From: Rhizobium sp. CF122 | Lineage (GTDB): Bacteria; Pseudomonadota; Alphaproteobacteria; Rhizobiales; Rhizobiaceae | Length of the DNA: 64,000 nt | Assembly (NCBI RefSeq): GCF_000282035.1 | Contig: NZ_AKKA01000033.1 | Span: 1-64,000 of the forward strand | Direction of reading: 5' to 3' | Shown: positions 22,956 through 34,712 of the stretch, one piece after another | How the letters are laid out: the number at the start of each line of letters is the position of its first letter | How positions within the stretch are numbered: position 1 is the first letter of the stretch | Position numbers and translations under genes: made by a program | The notes under the pieces: generated by a model | What the model saw: the letters and a program-made list of their open reading frames with translations, nothing else | What the model was told of the DNA's origin: nothing | The model's database searches: none

Positions 22956-23711
22956 ATGCCAACCTCCCATCCGATGGATCCGGTCAGTCACAGGGATGCC
23001 CAAATCTGCCGGGGTTGTTGGGATCAAATGCATGTCCCCATTCCGATTCGTGGCGCGCTTGCGCTGCCGTTCCGCATGTTTGGTGTCACCCGCAGCAAGA
23101 TGAACCCCAACATCTGCACGATTTGCGAGCGGTCGTTTCGTTACGTCAAGAAGCAGCGCCATGTTACCGCGACCGCAACCATCTTGTTTGCTGATATCAG
23201 AGGGTTCACTGCCCTCTCGGAGCAGATCGAGCCGATCAGGTTGAGTGAGATTGTCAGCCTGTTTCATGACCGATGCGCGCAGGCGATCTGGGCTCACGAC
23301 GGTATCGTCAACAAGCAGATGGGCGATGGCTTGATGGCGATCTTCAATTTTCCGATCCTGAGAAAGGATCATGCCGCCGCCGCGGTTATGGCGGCGCTCG
23401 ACATACAGCAACACTGCACCGCGGTATTCGAAAGCCTTGATCGTGGTCACAGCTTCGGTGTCGGTGTCGGTATTCACACCGGCGAGGTCGAGATCGGTGA
23501 GTTTTCGAGCTTCCGTAGCGATTTTACGGCAATTGGTGGTGCTGTTAATCTTGCGTCGAGGCTGGAATCGCAGGCAGGCGCAGGCGAGATCGTCATGTCG
23601 CCAGAATCTGCATCTCAGGCTGCGCATCTCACAGCCGCAGCGCATGCCCGTACGCTGTCGCTGAAAGGCATAGAATTGCCGGTACAGGCGAGCGTGCTGG
23701 TTCGGAGATGA
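22956..23711 (+). CDS. class III adenylate/guanylate cyclase with four-cysteine N terminus
   Basis: 251 aa. The cyclase domain spans about residues 70-250. Metal-binding Asp80 is in ILFADIRGFT and Asp124 in QMGDGLMAIFN; the FTAIGGAVNLASRLES segment holds the transition-state Asn and Arg. The Lys of VNKQMGDG is retained, but the residue setting adenine or guanine choice is not certain. Ahead of it are two Cys-x2-Cys pairs, C18/C21 (ICRGCW) and C54/C57 (ICTICE), 32 residues apart, suggesting a metal-binding or redox-sensing module. No membrane segment. GGAGG lies 9 bp upstream of the ATG. Confidence 0.88.
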   Translation: MPTSHPMDPVSHRDAQICRGCWDQMHVPIPIRGALALPFRMFGVTRSKMNPNICTICERSFRYVKKQRHVTATATILFADIRGFTALSEQIEPIRLSEIVSLFHDRCAQAIWAHDGIVNKQMGDGLMAIFNFPILRKDHAAAAVMAALDIQQHCTAVFESLDRGHSFGVGVGIHTGEVEIGEFSSFRSDFTAIGGAVNLASRLESQAGAGEIVMSPESASQAAHLTAAAHARTLSLKGIELPVQASVLVRR

Positions 23712-26467: not shown

Positions 26468-26540
26468 ATAAATCGCATCCGATTAAATCGGATATTGACG
26501 TTTGCGCGCGGCCCGCGTATTTAAAGCGTATCCGAGTTAT
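26468..26540 (+). promoter_or_regulatory. OhrR-type operators and sigma70 promoter of the DUF3095 gene
   Basis: Bases 26468-26490 are identical over 23 bp to 30192-30214 in the ohrR-ohr intergenic region (core ATCGCATCCGATTAAA). TTGACG at 26495-26500 and TATTTA at 26518-26523, spaced 17 bp, copy the ohr promoter elements. Directly after the -10 a second, degenerate box (AAGCGTATCCGAGTTA, 26524-26539) stands where ohr has its second box. Control by the OhrR coded at 29649-30155 is inferred. Confidence 0.75.
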
Positions 26541-26577
26541 TCGCGCGCGAAATAAATCGAGCGGAAAGGACTTCGCT

Positions 26578-27687
26578 ATGTGGCACGGGAACAGATTCAT
26601 GCAGTCGGTACAATCGGTCGTCAGTGTGACGAAGGCCAAGGAACGCTGGATCGTCAGCGATCATCCAAACACGCCCCAGGCCTATGGCGAATTTTCGCGG
26701 GTGCTCGACCCATCCGTCTATGAGGCGCTCCCCGATGATTGGTTGATCGGGATAACCGACGTCGTCGACTCGACGTCGGCGATCAAGTCAGGGCGTTACG
26801 AAGACGTCAACTACGCCGGCGCATCGGTGATCGCCGCCGTGGGAAACGCCTGGGGCAACTTCGATTTTCCCTTCGTGTTTCGCGGAGATGGGGCTGCGTT
26901 CGCACTGCCGCCCCATGGGATCATGACCGCGACGTCCGCGTTGCGGCAGGTGGTCGCCTTTGCCAGTGCCAATCTCAACCTGGCTCTTCGGGCCGGTTTG
27001 GTGCGCGTGGGCGCGATCCGTGCCAATGGACGTGACGTGCGCATCGCGCACTATGCCGCCTCTGAAAACGCGACCTATGCGATGTTTGCCGGCGGCGGCC
27101 TAAAATGGGCGGAGCGTCAGATCAAGAATGGTCGATACCTAGTAAAGCCGGGCAGCTACACGACGAAACCCGATCTGACCGGCCTGACCTGCGATTGGGA
27201 GCCGTTTCCCAGCCAGAGGGGCGAGATCCTGTCGCTGCTCGTCGAGCCAGCCGAAGATAGGAGCCCGGAGGTCTTTGCGTCCTTGGCGAAGTGCGTGCTT
27301 TCGGTTCTCGACGCCGGCACGCGGCAAGCCCAGCCGGCATCGCGGGAGACCGCCATCCCCAGGGACGGTGCCAGGTCGGTCGACCGCGAAAGCTGGTTGG
27401 CCGTCGCCTCCAGCTCCGACTTCCGCAAATATGATGACGGCCTGCGTCTCACACTGGATTGCACGAGCGAACAGATCGAAGCGGTCGAGGCCATCCTCGT
27501 TGCGGCAAAGGCGCGAGGTGAGGTCAACTTCGGACTCCACCGCCAGTCTCATGCGCTCATGACCTGCTTCGTGCCTTCGGGAAAGCCGGATTCTCACCTG
27601 CACTTTCTCGACGGTATGGGGGGCGGGTATGCCAAGGCAGCCGAGATGATGGAGGCAAACGAGCTTCCGATGGTGTCATCACGGTAG
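26578..27687 (+). CDS. DUF3095 protein, class III cyclase-like
   Basis: 369 aa from the ATG at 26578, with GGAAAGGA upstream. DUF3095 signatures run throughout (PDDWLIGITDVVDSTSAIKS, RYEDVNYAGASVIAAVGNAW, FVFRGDGAAFALP, LRAGLVRVGAIRANGRDVRI). Asp61/Asp64 in the DVVDST loop and Asp104 in the GDG turn correspond in order and setting to the two metal aspartates of class III nucleotidyl cyclases, so a nucleotide-converting or -binding role is inferred but unproven. The C-terminal 100 residues are an extra domain. Its promoter carries OhrR-type sites. Confidence 0.82.
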   Translation: MWHGNRFMQSVQSVVSVTKAKERWIVSDHPNTPQAYGEFSRVLDPSVYEALPDDWLIGITDVVDSTSAIKSGRYEDVNYAGASVIAAVGNAWGNFDFPFVFRGDGAAFALPPHGIMTATSALRQVVAFASANLNLALRAGLVRVGAIRANGRDVRIAHYAASENATYAMFAGGGLKWAERQIKNGRYLVKPGSYTTKPDLTGLTCDWEPFPSQRGEILSLLVEPAEDRSPEVFASLAKCVLSVLDAGTRQAQPASRETAIPRDGARSVDRESWLAVASSSDFRKYDDGLRLTLDCTSEQIEAVEAILVAAKARGEVNFGLHRQSHALMTCFVPSGKPDSHLHFLDGMGGGYAKAAEMMEANELPMVSSR

Positions 27688-27971: not shown

Positions 27972-29105
27972 CTACTTTCCGCGATGTTTGCTAAAGAGAG
28001 CGACTACGCTGTGAGGGGCATTATCACCAAGAAATCGGCTGAGGTTCTGTGCGGTTTCTTCGGCGACCTTCATGCTTCTGGGAAAGAGATTCATTTCATA
28101 GAGCGCAAGCGCGGCTTCCACATCATCGGGCGTCGAGATGAGCACACTTGCAAGCTCGTAGCCATCATACAGGGCAAGGTTGGCACCTTCTCCCGCGAAC
28201 GGCGACATCAAATGTGCCGCATCGCCAAGCAACGTCACGCCGGGTACTCGTCGCCATTGGTGTTCGACTGGCAGCGCATAAATTGGGCGAAGCACGGGAT
28301 CGGCCTCACCCTTTGTGATAAGGGCGGTTAGGTGGGAAGCCCATCCTTCGAATTGCTCGGCGATACGAGCCAAGCCAGCCTTCGGGTCGGCGAAGTCGAT
28401 TGAATTCGCCCAGTCTTCCGGCTTGTTCAAGGCCGCATAGGTATGCAGCATTCCGTTTGCATAGCGGTGCGCCAAGATGGCCTTGCCCGGAGCGACTGCC
28501 ATAAGCGTGCCACTTCCTATTGCTTCCGCGCTTGCCTTATGGCGTGTGTGGCCATCGAAAAGGATGGTTTCGATGAACAATGTGCCTGAGTAGAGGGGCT
28601 TAGCAGGGGACAAAAGCGGACGAACTTTCGACCACGCGCCATCGGCACCCACAAGCAGATCAGAAAGGACGGTTGAACCGTCGGCAAAAGTGACCTCGTG
28701 CTGATCTGCGCCATGCGGGGCTATCGATGTGACCCTGTGGCCCCACTTGATCGTTTCCGGGGGAAGCGAGCCGATAAGCATGTTCCGAAGGTGGCCTCGA
28801 TCAATTTCAGGACGATTGGCGACGTTGTCGCCAGGACTGTCGAATAGGATATGACCGTCCTTATCAACGACCCGTTTTGCATCTTCGCCGTGGCGGACGA
28901 GGCCAAGGAAGGTTTCAAAAAGTCCTGCGGCCTTAAGGGCAATCTGGCCGTTGTATTCATGGATATCCAGTAGCCCGCCCTGCGTTCTCGCGCTCGCCGA
29001 GGCTTCGGATTCGTAGATGACCGAGGGGATGCCGTGAAGATGGAGAACACGGGCTAGCGTAAGGCCACCGAGACCAGCACCGATGATCGTAACTGGGTTT
29101 CGCAT
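27972..29105 (-). CDS. FAD-dependent monooxygenase, TetX-like
   Basis: 377 aa from the ATG at 29105 (AGGAGCG upstream). The N-terminal dinucleotide fold [20 protein letters not shown], the DG-type motif [16 protein letters not shown] and the second FAD motif [20 protein letters not shown] place it in the group A flavin monooxygenases (PHBH fold). [18 protein letters not shown] and the [14 protein letters not shown] end are close to TetX and related hydroxylases of aromatic or antibiotic substrates. Cytoplasmic, NAD(P)H-dependent. It sits between the DUF3095 gene and ohrR, without a coupled partner. Confidence 0.85.
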
Positions 29106-29648
29106 TGCAGCGCTCCTATCAAATGCAAGCATGCAGCGTCCGCAGCGCTGATGATTGCTGTAGCCTGATCGTATCAGGCGATTGCTTCGGGAGACGCTGG
29201 CCGAGCCGGAGCTATGTGCTCGTCCGACTTGTATTCGGCGGCTGAAATCGGCCTGCCGTTTTTCGCGACGGCATTAGCCTGTATTAAAAGCCTGAGTGAT
29301 GCAACCCTGTCTTCTGCCATTGGCAATCGGACGCCATTCTCGGATGATGACCGCAAATGGCGCATTCCAGCCGAAATCGCTGCTCTAAGGAGCAAAAGTC
29401 TTCTGACAGCCACTGCCGTTTCCAACTTGTGCAGCGTTCAACGTCTTTTCGCGGCGCGCGCTTCTCTCCGGGGTCGGCTTGGTGAAGATCGGGAACGAAG
29501 CCGATTAGCCCATCTATGCTCTACCGCCACGCCCAATCCTGCCCGCCGGTTGGTCGCGGATTGTTGCCAGCGCGCCAAATGCGCGACGCTCTCGTCCCGC
29601 ATGCCAAGCGAGCGCCGCATACATCGACGCTTACAGCAGTGAGAATGA
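29106..29648. other. 540-bp region without a supported gene
   Basis: Open frames on both strands (plus 29214-29642, minus 29174-29425) have skewed composition and match nothing known. They may be remnants or chance frames. The promoter of the FAD monooxygenase must lie near 29110-29200. Confidence 0.4.
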
Positions 29649-30155
29649 TCAATCCTTCGCCGGCCCGTCTTGCGTTGCCTTTAGGAGGTTGTCGCGCAGC
29701 CGTACCACGGATTTCTGCACGACCGGAAAGTCCTCGCCGAGGCCGGTGGCTTCCACCAGTGGCGCGCCGGGAACCGCCTCAACCAGATTGCGTCCGGCCG
29801 GCGTCAGGCTCAGTCGCACCTGCCGCTCGTCAGCGGGATCGCGTTTGCGTTGGATATAGCCCAGGGACTCAAGTTTCTTAAGCATCGGCGTCAGCGTGTT
29901 TGATTCCAGGAAGAGCTTTTCGCCGAGCGTTCCCACGGTCTGGTCGTCCTTCTCGGAGAGGGCGACCATTGCGATATACTGGGTGTAGGTCAGATTCAGC
30001 TTGTCCAGGATCGGCTTGTATGCGCGGCCGAAGGCCAGATTTGCCGAGTAGACCGCGAAGCATAAAAAGTTGGAGAGCTTGTTGCTCTTGCTGTCGCTCT
30101 CGCCGGAAGAGGGCGCTCCTGTCTCCAGGTTCTTGGCGGTTTTGGATGCGGACAT
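29649..30155 (-). CDS. ohrR: organic-hydroperoxide sensor OhrR (MarR family)
   Basis: 168 aa. The reactive cysteine, Cys32, is in LSNFLCFAVYSANLAFGRAY, the diagnostic OhrR N terminus; the tyrosines that contact it (YSANLAFGRAYKP, LTYTQYIAMV) are present. The winged helix is VGTLGEKLFLESNTLTPMLK followed by KLESLGYIQRKRDPADERQV. Oxidation of Cys32 by organic peroxides releases the repressor from DNA. It has an N-terminal Ser/Lys extension of about 25 residues and a C-terminal tail. Divergent from ohr across 149 bp containing two operator boxes. Confidence 0.95.
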   Translation of the reverse strand: MSASKTAKNLETGAPSSGESDSKSNKLSNFLCFAVYSANLAFGRAYKPILDKLNLTYTQYIAMVALSEKDDQTVGTLGEKLFLESNTLTPMLKKLESLGYIQRKRDPADERQVRLSLTPAGRNLVEAVPGAPLVEATGLGEDFPVVQKSVVRLRDNLLKATQDGPAKD

Positions 30156-30191: not shown

Positions 30192-30280
30192 ATAAATCGC
30201 ATCCGATTAAATCGCAATGGTATTGACAATGCATTTTCATCGGCCTATTTAGATCGCATCCGATTAAAGCGGATACGATT
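30192..30280 (+). promoter_or_regulatory. ohr promoter with two OhrR operator boxes
   Basis: Box 1 (30192-30214) and box 2 (30251-30280) both contain ATCGCATCCGATTAAA; each holds the inverted repeat AATCG-CATC-CGATT or a close variant. Between them TTGACA (30223-30228) and TATTTA (30246-30251) with 17-bp spacing form the ohr promoter. Box 2 begins at the last base of the -10, so bound OhrR would block RNA polymerase. OhrR binding is inferred from position between ohrR and ohr. Confidence 0.85.
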
Positions 30281-30304: not shown

Positions 30305-30700
30305 ATGACCGAGAAACTCCTCTTTACCGGCAAGACCCGCAACAAGGGCGGTCGCAATGGTTTCACACGCAGCAGTGATGGCGAGCTTGACCTTCAGTTG
30401 TCGCAGCCGCACCCGGCGGCCGAACGCCTCTTCGGCGCTGCATGGTCGGCTTGCTTCATTGGTGCCATTGAGGTCGCTGCGGCGCAAAGAAAGATCAAGC
30501 TGCCCGTTGAGCCCGAGATCGACACGGAAATCGATCTGAACGCCGACGGTGGTTCCTACTTCCTGCGCGCACGCCTGAACGTCAGCGTGCCGGGCATTGA
30601 GCGTGATGTCGCCGAGGAACTCATCCACGCAGCGCATGAGATCTGCCCGTATTCCAAGGCAACGCGCGGCAACATCGACGTGGCGCTCAACCTCGTTTGA
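30305..30700 (+). CDS. ohr: organic hydroperoxide resistance peroxidase Ohr
   Basis: 131 aa OsmC/Ohr-family thiol peroxidase reducing organic and fatty-acid hydroperoxides with lipoyl proteins as reductant. Catalytic Cys50 in AAWSACFIGA and resolving Cys114 in HEICPYSKAT are present, as are the RNGFTRSSDG loop and the catalytic Glu helix. Ribosome site AAAGGA 8 bp before the ATG. Expressed from the OhrR-controlled promoter just upstream. Confidence 0.97.
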   Translation: MTEKLLFTGKTRNKGGRNGFTRSSDGELDLQLSQPHPAAERLFGAAWSACFIGAIEVAAAQRKIKLPVEPEIDTEIDLNADGGSYFLRARLNVSVPGIERDVAEELIHAAHEICPYSKATRGNIDVALNLV

Positions 30701-30828: not shown

Positions 30829-32118
30829 ATGACAGCTCCAGTATCATCGATCACACGGCGTAGCCTGCTTGGATGCGCGGCGGTTGCCGGCGTCGTCAGT
30901 CTCCTGCCGGTATCATTCGCTATAGCGGCTGACAACGGCAATGCAATCCACCCCTTCCGATGCAAAGCCTCCGATCAGCAGCTCGCCGATCTGCGCCAGC
31001 GGATCAACGCAACCCGATGGCCGGAGCCGGAAACGGTGACCGACAGTTCGCAAGGTGTACAGTATGCGACGACCCGGAAACTCGCTCGCTACTGGGCAAA
31101 CGAATATGATTGGCGCAAGGTCGAAGCCCGGCTGAATGCTCTGCCGCAGTTTACGACGACGATCGACGGGGTGGACATCCACTTCATTCACGTTCGCTCG
31201 AAGCACAAGGATGCGCTGCCTCTCATCGTCACACACGGATGGCCGGGCTCTGTCATCGAGCAGTTGAAGATCATCGAGCCGCTGACGAACCCGACGGCGC
31301 ACGGCGGCACGGCGTCGGATGCCTTCGATCTGGTTATCCCGTCGATGCCCGGTTACGGCTTTTCCGGTAAACCAACCACGACCGGCTGGGACCCGATCCG
31401 CATTGCGCACGCCTGGATCGAATTGATGAAGCGGCTTGGCTACACCAGATACGTGGCGCAGGGCGGCGATTGGGGCGATGCGGTAACCGAGCAGATGGCT
31501 CTGATCGCTCCTCCGGAATTGATCGGCATTCATGTCAACATGCCGGCGACTGTTCCAGCCGATATCGCCGTGGCGCTTCAACCCGGCGGCACGCCACCGA
31601 AAGGCCTCTCGCCCGAAGAACAGCATGCCTATGATCAACTGGACGATTTCTACAAGCACGGGCTTGGCTATGCGATCGAAATGGCGAACCGTCCGCAGAC
31701 GCTCTATGGGATCGCGGACTCGCCGGTCGGTCTGGCAGCATGGATGATCGACCACGATATCCGCAGCTACGAGATGATCGCACGCGTCTTCGATGGAAAG
31801 GCCGAAGGCCTGACGCGGGACGATATCCTGGACAACATTACACTCTACTGGCTGACGAACACAGCCGTCTCGTCGGCGCGGCTCTACTGGGAAAACAAGC
31901 TGGCGTTCTTTGCCGTCAAGAATGTCACCATTCCGGTCGCTGTTAGCGTTTTTCCGGATGAGATCTATGCGGCTCCGCGCAGCTGGACGGAACGCGCCTA
32001 TCCGAAGCTCATCCACTACAACAAGCTCGACAAGGGCGGGCACTTTGCTGCCTGGGAGCAGCCGAAGGGCTTCGCTTCGGAGCTCAGAGCGGCCTTCCGC
32101 TCGCTGCGGTCGGCGTAG
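30829..32118 (+). CDS. Tat-exported epoxide hydrolase-like protein
   Basis: 429 aa from the ATG at 30829, with AGGAGG 5 bp upstream. A twin-arginine signal (ITRRSLLGCAAVAGVVSLLP) predicts export in folded form. The epoxide-hydrolase N-terminal domain (FRCKASDQQLADLRQRINAT) precedes an alpha/beta hydrolase core: oxyanion HGWPGS, nucleophile Asp214 in GGDWGD and the catalytic His in GGHFAAWEQP. Relatives open epoxides; substrate unknown. Located 128 bp after ohr on the same strand and may be partly co-transcribed. Confidence 0.88.
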   Translation: MTAPVSSITRRSLLGCAAVAGVVSLLPVSFAIAADNGNAIHPFRCKASDQQLADLRQRINATRWPEPETVTDSSQGVQYATTRKLARYWANEYDWRKVEARLNALPQFTTTIDGVDIHFIHVRSKHKDALPLIVTHGWPGSVIEQLKIIEPLTNPTAHGGTASDAFDLVIPSMPGYGFSGKPTTTGWDPIRIAHAWIELMKRLGYTRYVAQGGDWGDAVTEQMALIAPPELIGIHVNMPATVPADIAVALQPGGTPPKGLSPEEQHAYDQLDDFYKHGLGYAIEMANRPQTLYGIADSPVGLAAWMIDHDIRSYEMIARVFDGKAEGLTRDDILDNITLYWLTNTAVSSARLYWENKLAFFAVKNVTIPVAVSVFPDEIYAAPRSWTERAYPKLIHYNKLDKGGHFAAWEQPKGFASELRAAFRSLRSA

Positions 32119-32218: not shown

Positions 32219-32701
32219 ATGCGTGACGTCGTCGAATTGCAGTTCGATCTTACCCCTCCCACTCGGGAACAGATGGAGCAGCTGGTGGCGGACCTCAGCG
32301 AAGAGGATCGCCATCTGCTTTTGGAGCATGGTGAGGAGGCGCCATTCTGTGGCGTGTTCCTCCACGAGCGACGCGAGGGGTTCTTTACCTGCCGGCTCTG
32401 CGGCCTTCCGCTGTTCAAGGCCGTTGCGAAATTCGAAAGCGGTACAGGCTGGCCGAGCTTCACGGCCCCGGCAGCCGACAATCACCTGCGGCGCGTTCGT
32501 GATACCCGCTACCGCATGCTCAGGACGGAAATTGTTTGCGCGCGTTGCGACGCGCATCAGGGGCACGTCTTTCCCGACGGCCCGCCTCCGACAGGCGAGC
32601 GCTTCTGCATAAACTCAGGGTCGCTCGAATTCACCCCGAAAGGGCAGCCGCTTCCTGACAAGCTTGGTCGCGGTGGCCCGGAAGGAGCGCCAGCACGATA
32701 G
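32219..32701 (+). CDS. msrB: methionine-R-sulfoxide reductase MsrB
   Basis: 160 aa. The SelR domain has zinc cysteines C58/C61 (CRLC) and C107/C110 (CARC), the substrate motif GTGWPSFTAP, the GHVFPDGPPPTGERFC block, and catalytic Cys130 in RFCINSGSL. It repairs oxidised methionine with thioredoxin. GAAGGAGA lies before the ATG. An N-terminal 45-residue extension replaces any signal peptide, so cytoplasmic. Last gene of the organic-peroxide group, with a hairpin after it. Confidence 0.95.
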   Translation: MRDVVELQFDLTPPTREQMEQLVADLSEEDRHLLLEHGEEAPFCGVFLHERREGFFTCRLCGLPLFKAVAKFESGTGWPSFTAPAADNHLRRVRDTRYRMLRTEIVCARCDAHQGHVFPDGPPPTGERFCINSGSLEFTPKGQPLPDKLGRGGPEGAPAR

Positions 32702-33615: not shown

Positions 33616-33695
33616 CGTTAGCCCGGCGTGCCGTCATTCCTAGCGGTTGCGCCGGCAATAAACGCTGGCCCCTTTCCTCCTAATCGAGATTGCCT

Positions 33696-34712
33696 ATGTG
33701 TAAATTTCTTGCAGCCATTGCGCTTGCCTTCGGCTTTGCTGGCTTGGCAGCGCCAAGTCTTGCCGCCACCCAGTATCCATTGACCATCAACAATTGCGGC
33801 CGCGAGGTCGTCTTCAATAAGGCGCCGGCCAACATCGTATCGATCGGTCAGGGCATGACCGAAGTTCTTTTCTCGCTCGGGCTGGCGGACAGGATTGCCG
33901 GAACGGCAGTCTGGGTCGGCCCGGTTTTGCCGCAATATGCCGAAGTCAACGCGAGGATCAAACGGCTTGCCGACAACGATCCGAGCTTTGAAACCGTCGT
34001 CGGTCAGGAACCGGATCTGGTCGCCGCCGAGTTTGAGTGGCACGTCGGTCAGCAAGGGTCCGTCGGCAAGCGGGAGCAATTCGCCGAACTCGGCATCAAT
34101 ACCTACATCGCGCCGGCGGATTGCGTCGCCAAGGTCAATGCCGACAGCGGCGACGGCGTTCGCAAGGAACTGTTCACGATGGGCCTGATCTATCGGGAGA
34201 TCGCTGAGTTGGCCGAAATCTTCGACATCACGGACCGCGGCGATGCGCTCGTCGCCGAGCTGCAGCAACGCGAAGCGCGGGCCGTCGCATCGGTTGCCGG
34301 TGCCGCTGCAAAGAACCTCCCGGTCGTCTTCTGGTTCTCCAGCAAGGAAATCAACGGCGATGCATTCATCGCCGGAAAGAACAGCGCCCCGGCCTATATC
34401 CTGAAGATGCTCGGTGCGAAGAATGTGGTCGCGACAGACGAGGAGTGGCCGCTCGTCGGCTGGGAGACGATTGCAGAGGCCAATCCGGCTGTGATCGTCG
34501 TAGCGACGATGGACCGGCGCCGCTATGCGGCGGATGACCCCACGGTAAAGCTCAACTTTCTGGCAAAGGACCCGGTCACGAGCCAACTCGATGCCGTCAG
34601 GAATAAGCGCTTCGTCATGATGGATGCCCAATCGATGAACCCGACGATTCGGACGATCGACGGGATCGAGATACTGGCGAAGGGCATCAATTCCTTCGGT
34701 CTGGCGCAGTGA
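33696..34712 (+). CDS. cobalamin-type ABC substrate-binding protein (BtuF/FepB family)
   Basis: 338 aa. Signal peptide from MCKFLAAIALAF to PSLAAT (cleavage near residue 24); periplasmic. The class III binding-protein fold is seen in NIVSIGQGMTEVLFSLGLAD near the N terminus, the FETVVGQEPDLVAAEFEW link, the long connecting helix, and the C-terminal SKEINGDAFIAGKNSAPAYI lobe. ATG 33696 is preferred; a TTG two codons earlier is possible. With the riboswitch upstream, vitamin B12 or a corrinoid precursor is the likely ligand. Ends in a GTGA overlap with the permease gene. Confidence 0.85.
   Translation: MCKFLAAIALAFGFAGLAAPSLAATQYPLTINNCGREVVFNKAPANIVSIGQGMTEVLFSLGLADRIAGTAVWVGPVLPQYAEVNARIKRLADNDPSFETVVGQEPDLVAAEFEWHVGQQGSVGKREQFAELGINTYIAPADCVAKVNADSGDGVRKELFTMGLIYREIAELAEIFDITDRGDALVAELQQREARAVASVAGAAAKNLPVVFWFSSKEINGDAFIAGKNSAPAYILKMLGAKNVVATDEEWPLVGWETIAEANPAVIVVATMDRRRYAADDPTVKLNFLAKDPVTSQLDAVRNKRFVMMDAQSMNPTIRTIDGIEILAKGINSFGLAQ

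Follow-up and report, generated by a model that had tools for sequence, protein, structure and literature searches.

A rhizobial gene for a predicted cyclase-shaped DUF3095 protein appears to share OhrR-type operators with ohr

A rhizobial gene for a cyclase-shaped protein of the DUF3095 family appears to be switched on together with ohr, whose product defends the cell against organic peroxides, and sequence comparison suggests that the link has been kept across many species. The gene lies in the window, the 64,000-nucleotide stretch of Rhizobium sp. CF122 that was analyzed. The explanation considered probable as a whole is that DUF3095 is a fixed member of the OhrR regulon, that ohr was lost upstream of it, and that it encodes a predicted NTP-binding pseudo-cyclase. 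OhrR is known chiefly as the switch for ohr. From the DNA we infer OhrR binding to the operator boxes described below, induction by peroxide, and co-transcription. In the proposed mechanism, reduced single-cysteine OhrR would sit on two palindromic boxes (core ATCCGATTNAATCGGAT) bracketing the -35 and -10 elements and would block transcription. Organic hydroperoxide would oxidize the OhrR cysteine and release the protein, whereupon ohr and DUF3095 would come on together, probably along with the epoxide hydrolase and msrB genes behind ohr. The features concerned are given below in window coordinates.

26472..26493, no strand: operator box 1 of the DUF3095 promoter, ATCGCATCCGATTAAATCGGAT, containing the perfect 17-bp palindrome ATCCGATTAAATCGGAT
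26495..26500, + strand: -35 element of the DUF3095 promoter, TTGACG (sequence, conservation in relatives)
26518..26523, + strand: -10 element of the DUF3095 promoter, TATTTA (sequence, conservation in relatives)
26525..26548, no strand: operator box 2 of the DUF3095 promoter, AGCGTATCCGAGTTATTCGCGCGC, an imperfect palindrome
26565..26580, + strand: probable ribosome-binding site and start, AAAGGACTTCGCTATG, resembling the ohr start region AAAGGATTTCGCTATG
26578..27687, + strand: DUF3095 paralogue 2, 369 amino acids, predicted tandem class III cyclase fold (Pfam, model)
27972..29132, - strand: FAD-dependent monooxygenase gene between both parts of the locus; regulon membership is not claimed
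29649..30155, - strand: ohrR, putative MarR-family repressor with a single cysteine, C32 (Pfam, PDB matches, alignment)
30196..30217, no strand: operator box 1 between ohrR and ohr (sequence, genome scan)
30223..30251, + strand: ohr promoter, TTGACA at 30223-30228, 17 bp, TATTTA at 30246-30251
30253..30279, no strand: operator box 2 before ohr, ATCGCATCCGATTAAAGCGGATACGAT, a good palindrome
30305..30700, + strand: ohr, 131 amino acids, Ohr family with both motif cysteines (Pfam, TIGR03561)
30829..32118, + strand: epoxide hydrolase gene, 3' of ohr (Pfam)
32219..32701, + strand: msrB, methionine sulfoxide reductase B (Pfam, curated model)

Genes, promoters and operators of the locus

The protein encoded at 26578-27687 passed the gathering cut-off of DUF3095 (PF11294) with 356.3 against 22.2 bits. 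It is a second, shortened paralogue, hereafter DUF3095-2, which lacks Pfam positions ~235-294; the genome also carries a full-length core DUF3095 (G000:C71:78557-79672). The start codon is most likely the ATG at 26578, preceded by AAAGGACTTCGCT. OhrR passed the Pfam MarR model (54.3 bits, cut-off 24.6), and its best PDB matches, 2pfb and 1z91, are both OhrR. The C32 residue, aligned to the cysteine of LCFALYSANLA in 2pfb, is the predicted reactive cysteine; all 53 orthologues have it, and exactly one cysteine was found in 52 of the 53 aligned parts. The position of the gene agrees with the assignment: ohrR is the neighbor of ohr, whose promoter has operator-like sites. Against NCBIfam NF052638, the equivalog model of Vibrio OhrR, the protein scored 117.4 bits, below the cut-off of 200, and it is not assigned to that model. 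Ohr passed TIGR03561 (127 versus 88.85 bits), with its motif cysteines located within WSACFIGA and CPYSKATRGN. The nearest named relatives of the window include Rhizobium sp. R711, R. mesoamericanum and R. tibeticum. At 33690-34712 the window also encodes a siderophore-type ABC substrate-binding protein that scored under the EitA cut-off (337.9 versus 640 bits).

A sequence-only reading of the window had described a 23-bp block before DUF3095 as identical to operator box 1 between ohrR and ohr. This was borne out by sequence comparison, positions 26468-26490 (+) and 30192-30214 being the same 23 bp with identity ending at both edges. No other exact direct repeat of the window is as long, and shuffling the sequence 60 times with dinucleotides preserved gave maximum repeat lengths of 14-19 bp. 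The sequence ATCGCATCCGATTAAA occurs in exactly three copies in the window, one before DUF3095 and two at ohr. The whole genome (6,140,991 bases) was scanned with the 22-mer ATCGNATCCGATTNAATCGNAT at up to three mismatches, which returned four listings at three boxes, with 0-1 mismatch, and two sites elsewhere with three mismatches each. Matches with at most one mismatch in this 6.14-Mb genome were confined to ohr/ohrR and the region before the DUF3095 gene, and the reversed ATCGNATCCGATTNAATCGNAT, used as a control at up to three mismatches over the whole genome, gave 0 sites. With the 13-mer ATCGCATCCGATT, 11 matches were obtained at up to one mismatch, eight of them outside the three boxes; in the seven of these that were inspected (the eighth, C95, was left out) the palindrome does not continue. 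A wider regulon in this genome was rejected, the 22-mer scan having given no good site beyond the three boxes.

It is scarcely credible that the 23-bp identity is chance or a meaningless repeat, a reading favored by the shortness of the block and nothing more: the shuffles (n = 60) reached 19 bp at most, the genome is without any other good site, and the block is kept in relatives. A recent meaningless duplication was also rejected, as conservation is highest in the boxes, -35 and -10.

The two promoters have TTGAC, a 17-bp spacing and TATTTA in common, as the sequence-only reading had stated and as the letters of both confirm. Its further claim of a second box right after the -10 holds at both genes: the box before ohr is a good palindrome, and that before DUF3095 is imperfect, with a degraded right half, yet conserved in six Rhizobium loci (window included) in which DUF3095 and ohr are likewise split. 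The start of box 1 lies 23 bp from TTGAC before DUF3095 and 27 bp from it before ohr, a difference that the sequence-only reading did not mention. The degraded half of box 2 and this 4-bp shorter distance at DUF3095 count against shared control by OhrR.

Distribution of the boxes, OhrR and ohr among relatives

The locus was compared in 37 genomes of the same genus (own one included) and in 77 loci from a GTDB scan; the two sets partly overlap and their counts are not independent. The GTDB loci, found by two short peptide patterns that miss distant members, span Rhizobium, Sinorhizobium/Ensifer, Microvirga, Phyllobacterium, Pararhizobium, Pseudochelatococcus and further Rhizobiales. An upstream ohr was accepted within 600 bp; a box was allowed up to three mismatches and had to lie no more than 350 bp from the first gene; and OhrR was sought in the locus by tblastn. 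At 15 loci the tblastn DUF3095 match overran the true start upstream, crossing a stop, which makes the ohr-DUF3095 distances there too short and leaves the 600-bp operon criterion unaffected.

The ohr gene lies directly upstream of DUF3095-2 on the same strand, as one apparent operon, at 61 of the 77 loci; 46 of these have both OhrR and boxes, three have boxes with no OhrR found, and 12 have neither. Nine other loci have a box before DUF3095 and no upstream ohr (eight with OhrR, and L193, which is cut by a contig end), and in the remaining seven a directly upstream ohr, OhrR and the box are all absent. Counted by regulator, boxes precede ohr-DUF3095 or DUF3095 at 54 of the 54 loci with OhrR in reach and at 4 of the 23 without; three of those four (L124, L133, L193) stop at or near a contig end, and the fourth, L140, has no ohrR within 6 kb. 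The regulatory link between OhrR and DUF3095 suggested by the sequence-only reading is strongly supported by this comparison: boxes accompany OhrR at all 54 loci, and 19 of the 23 loci without OhrR lack them. The reading had also proposed that operators be searched for at orthologous loci, where their absence would refute the link, and boxes were present at every such locus with OhrR.

Within the genus, DUF3095-2 is present in 14 of the 37 genomes. An Ohr at least 66% identical to that of the window was found in the same 14, and the remaining 23 have only copies of at most 61%. OhrR of at least 70% identity occurs in 13 of the 14, and all 13 have boxes at the locus; the fourteenth genome, G008, has neither window-type OhrR nor boxes. 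As a control, 59 loci with core or distant DUF3095 were examined (some redundant, flanks of ~1.5 kb); these contained 0 instances of ohr, ohrR, epoxide hydrolase, msrB or monooxygenase, and 0 copies of the cyclase gene of the window. Among 289 sampled genomes of the class, the other 17 with a DUF3095 match have weaker, core-like matches only.

These data bear on whether a MarR-type regulator other than the OhrR of the locus binds the boxes. The genome does contain further OhrR/MarR homologues (12 matches in all at E ≤ 0.001), and the palindrome is unlike the Sinorhizobium meliloti OhrR motif GCAAATTAATTTTG as it appears in the excerpt of the published account. This alternative is nonetheless very unlikely, given that the boxes track window-type OhrR both in the 77 loci and in the same-genus genomes, and that a box also precedes ohrR itself in the 13 loci inspected.

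Several single loci depart from the common arrangement. In G029 (L084:8652-9833) ohrR and msrB point away from each other and a box lies in between, which suggests that msrB is a further putative OhrR target in that genome. DUF3095-2 of Rhizobium leguminosarum strain Norway (L083 in G026, and L187) has a frameshift near codon 189, either real or a sequencing error, and broken or partial DUF3095-2 matches were seen at L188, L190, L191 and L192 (Microvirga lupini, M. aerophila, R. giardinii). Given these broken or incomplete copies, DUF3095-2 may be dispensable in places.

History of the split locus

The sequence-only reading had taken the promoter of DUF3095 for a copy of the ohr promoter. The shared block and promoter stand, but simple copying does not, because the apparent operon is the usual arrangement and the split in the window is derived. 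The "copy" is most likely the old ohr-DUF3095 promoter, retained after the upstream ohr was lost. Five Ensifer-type loci (L159, L160, L161, L164, L166) have two ohr genes, one before DUF3095 (partial in L164) and the other divergent from ohrR, with boxes ahead of each, and at the eight split loci with OhrR the sole ohr found is the one beside ohrR. In the DUF3095 tree, in which the short upstream leaders of the overrun tblastn matches were left in, the split loci fall in two places, with supported branches that force at least two origins. The splits of ohr and DUF3095 arose at least twice. In the ohr tree the divergent ohr of the window clade groups with those of the Ensifer two-copy and split loci with moderate support (86/88). 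From these sequences we infer the order of ohr duplication and loss: most relatives carry ohr and DUF3095 within one apparent operon, and in the window lineage, and separately in an Ensifer lineage, ohr would have been duplicated next to ohrR and the DUF3095-side ohr then lost, with DUF3095 retaining the old promoter and boxes.

The start regions offer a hint of the same promoter origin. The sequence AAAGGATTTCGCTATG, which forms the ohr start region in the operon loci L121-L123, is also the start region of the split DUF3095 gene in L118, and the window is one base off it; of the other split genes, four from Rhizobium differ from it by 2-3 bases and four from Ensifer by 6-8, so that a near match to the ohr-like start is found in L118 and the window alone of the ten.

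All eight loci with OhrR and no ohr before DUF3095 retain the box there. Averaged over columns, conservation across the six split Rhizobium loci was 96% in box 1, 94% in the -35, 97% in the -10 and 89% in box 2, followed by 86% in the ribosome-binding region and 81% just before it; the reference regions gave 64% (upstream) and 68% (spacer). The dN/dS of the window DUF3095 gene against the other five split Rhizobium genes was 0.10-0.15. Because the box is kept at eight of eight split loci, and because both boxes, the -35 and the -10 stand above their surroundings, the pattern argues for selection for continued co-regulation of DUF3095 with ohr.

A second regulator history is suggested by the 12 ohr-DUF3095 loci that have neither OhrR nor OhrR boxes. 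All 12 (among L168-L180, plus L191 and L194) carry CACGTTAGGCGTTGTTAG and its inverse CTAACAACGCCTAACGTG upstream of ohr, with 0-2 mismatches each. At L171 (400-5231), the one locus inspected, the divergent cluster comprises genes for an epoxide hydrolase, for another Ohr/OsmC protein and for a 969-residue regulator with winged-helix, NB-ARC and TPR parts, which is a candidate replacement regulator. In the DUF3095 tree the 11 rows of this clade form one group (100/100), whose position within the OhrR-linked set is moderately supported (83/82). As far as the trees and neighborhoods indicate, the ohr-DUF3095 pair thus seems to have survived a change of regulator. As these 12 loci have neither OhrR nor its boxes, the ohr-DUF3095 partnership does not need OhrR everywhere.

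The persistence of promoter and pair is also what weighs against DUF3095 being a hitchhiker, transcribed with ohr through operon history and without a role in the peroxide response. In favor of a hitchhiker, core DUF3095 has no ohr link and some DUF3095-2 copies are broken or incomplete. However, two separate lineages without the upstream ohr still have boxes, -35 and -10 ahead of DUF3095, the promoter elements are measurably conserved in the Rhizobium split lineage, and the ohr-DUF3095 pair persists in a clade without window-type OhrR and boxes. The hitchhiker account is held to be improbable. The locus also illustrates how a regulator can retain a putative target once two paired genes have come apart, as happened in two lineages or more.

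Predicted DUF3095 protein and comparison with known systems

An AlphaFold2 model of the DUF3095 protein built on 54 diverse DUF3095 sequences had a pLDDT of 88.1 and a pTM of 0.86; an earlier model from 15 close sequences, at pLDDT 52, was too poor for use. The best structural match to the model was 6yii (VIA Z 14.0, rmsd 5.1, 274 residues), followed by tandem mammalian adenylyl cyclases (Z 10.9-13.6), and Foldseek matched it to human soluble adenylyl cyclase at 6.5e-6. The tandem-domain class III cyclase fold was seen in the predicted model only. Pfam matched DUF3095 alone at E ≤ 0.001, with the class III cyclase family PF00211 absent, and the DUF3095 profile, searched for solved homologues at E ≤ 10, recovered just 8jsz, a uridylate cyclase, at E 1.6, and not 6yii. 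No viral structure matched the model at E ≤ 0.001. An anti-phage defense role was rejected, there being no PADLOC match at E ≤ 1.

Residue conservation was read from an alignment of 53 sequences, hand-picked from 71 listed, plus that of the window. D61 is aspartate in 50 of the 50 rows having a residue there (four gaps), and D104, R138, K183, C205, D281, T329, C330, H342 and D345 are invariant in all 54. A profile alignment (hhalign) to 17 class III domains from this genome, selected from 26 cyclase matches, was weak, with a probability of 14%, and paired D61 and D104 with the metal aspartates. Together with the predicted fold, this pairing agrees with the sequence-only reading of a class III-like protein with metal-aspartate loops. 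In the same weak alignment, positions 176 and 180, which correspond to the class III Asn and Arg, are variable; in domain 2 the corresponding residues, located by eye, are Gly350 and Ala354, each found in all 54 rows. Neither the profile alignment nor, for domain 2, inspection by eye gave a conserved Asn-Arg pair of the class III type. Cys205 and Cys330 are not specific to the peroxide setting, since they are invariant in core DUF3095 as well; core DUF3095, for which no link to ohr was seen, conserves the same metal and cysteine residues.

Since no conserved Asn-Arg pair was found, the DUF3095 protein is more likely an NTP-binding pseudo-cyclase than a cyclase, judged from the predicted structure, and an unusual enzyme is possible. 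The earlier description of it as nucleotide-handling and cyclase-like is accordingly divided: nucleotide handling is plausible, and cyclase activity is doubtful for want of that pair. The competing proposal, that DUF3095 is an active NTP enzyme (cyclase, nucleotidyltransferase or hydrolase) making a peroxide-stress signal, is regarded as unlikely. In its favor, both metal aspartates and many other polar residues are invariant and the fold resembles tandem adenylyl cyclases; against it, no conserved Asn-Arg pair was seen at the class III positions (domain 2 by eye), and 6yii, the solved structure nearest in fold, bears the title of an ATP-binding cyclase-like protein. The 6yii protein is reportedly inactive and ATP-bound, and we know of no tie of it to peroxide. 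As a pseudo-cyclase, the DUF3095 protein would most likely bind an NTP with a metal ion through Asp61 and Asp104, would show no cyclase activity of the kind that makes a cyclic nucleotide by the usual route, and would serve as an ATP-binding sensor or regulatory subunit under peroxide stress.

Cyclase genes were also observed near DUF3095 genes. The window carries a single-domain class III cyclase gene (22956-23711), 2.9 kb upstream of DUF3095, whose product has GG where GD before VN is usual, and cyclase genes lie likewise upstream in the related split loci L118, L120 and L170. A class III cyclase gene occurs at 11 of the 77 DUF3095-2 loci against about 4 expected (26 per genome); a link is not claimed, as several of the loci are close relatives. 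In all three same-genus loci inspected (L279, L280, L281) core DUF3095 has a class III cyclase gene on either side, one flanking cyclase of L279 (G000:C71:72000-86000) carrying a 2Fe-2S domain, and in five loci of other groups it does not lie between class III cyclase genes.

DUF3095 was named in no paper of the literature searched, and nothing on a link was found in the excerpts of papers pairing ohr or OhrR with adenylate cyclase and organic hydroperoxide. The present locus places DUF3095 for the first time in a physiological context open to experiment, namely the response of nodule bacteria to organic peroxide. OhrR would control a nucleotide-handling protein besides ohr, provided that the protein is indeed an NTP-binding pseudo-cyclase. 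Rather doubtful, by the evidence at hand, is the broader idea that a subfamily of OhrR regulons in rhizobia and Microvirga pairs peroxide reduction with a dedicated protein of a new functional class that binds or converts nucleotides, through which organic peroxide would trigger a nucleotide signal or a check of energy state.

Among known systems, the DUF3095 protein is like 6yii, a class III adenylyl cyclase-like ATP-binding protein of Pseudomonas aeruginosa, in its predicted tandem cyclase fold, and unlike it in sequence, being just 10% identical. With core DUF3095 (PF11294) of the same genomes, the paralogue shares the family, the metal loops and the invariant residues, but core DUF3095 is full-length with an inter-domain stretch that the paralogue lacks. 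Ohr of the window, at 131 amino acids, is without a few residues present in 4mh4. According to the excerpted reports, OhrR of S. meliloti (the SMc00098/SMc00040 system) recognizes a pair of neighboring palindromes, GCAAATTAATTTTG and GCAAATTGCTTTGC, located in the ohr-ohrR region, and is prevented from binding DNA by oxidation (PMC3107159), and OhrR of Azorhizobium caulinodans binds the ohr promoter until peroxide stops the binding (PMC7141136). As far as these excerpts go, the present locus resembles both in its MarR-family regulator with a reactive-type cysteine, predicted here, and resembles S. meliloti in having ohrR divergent from ohr with two adjacent palindromic sites between them. It differs from S. 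meliloti in its operator core, ATCCGATTNAATCGGAT in place of the two palindromes described there (PMC3107159), and from the two systems as excerpted in that OhrR has one cysteine instead of two and DUF3095 is an extra, conserved putative target.
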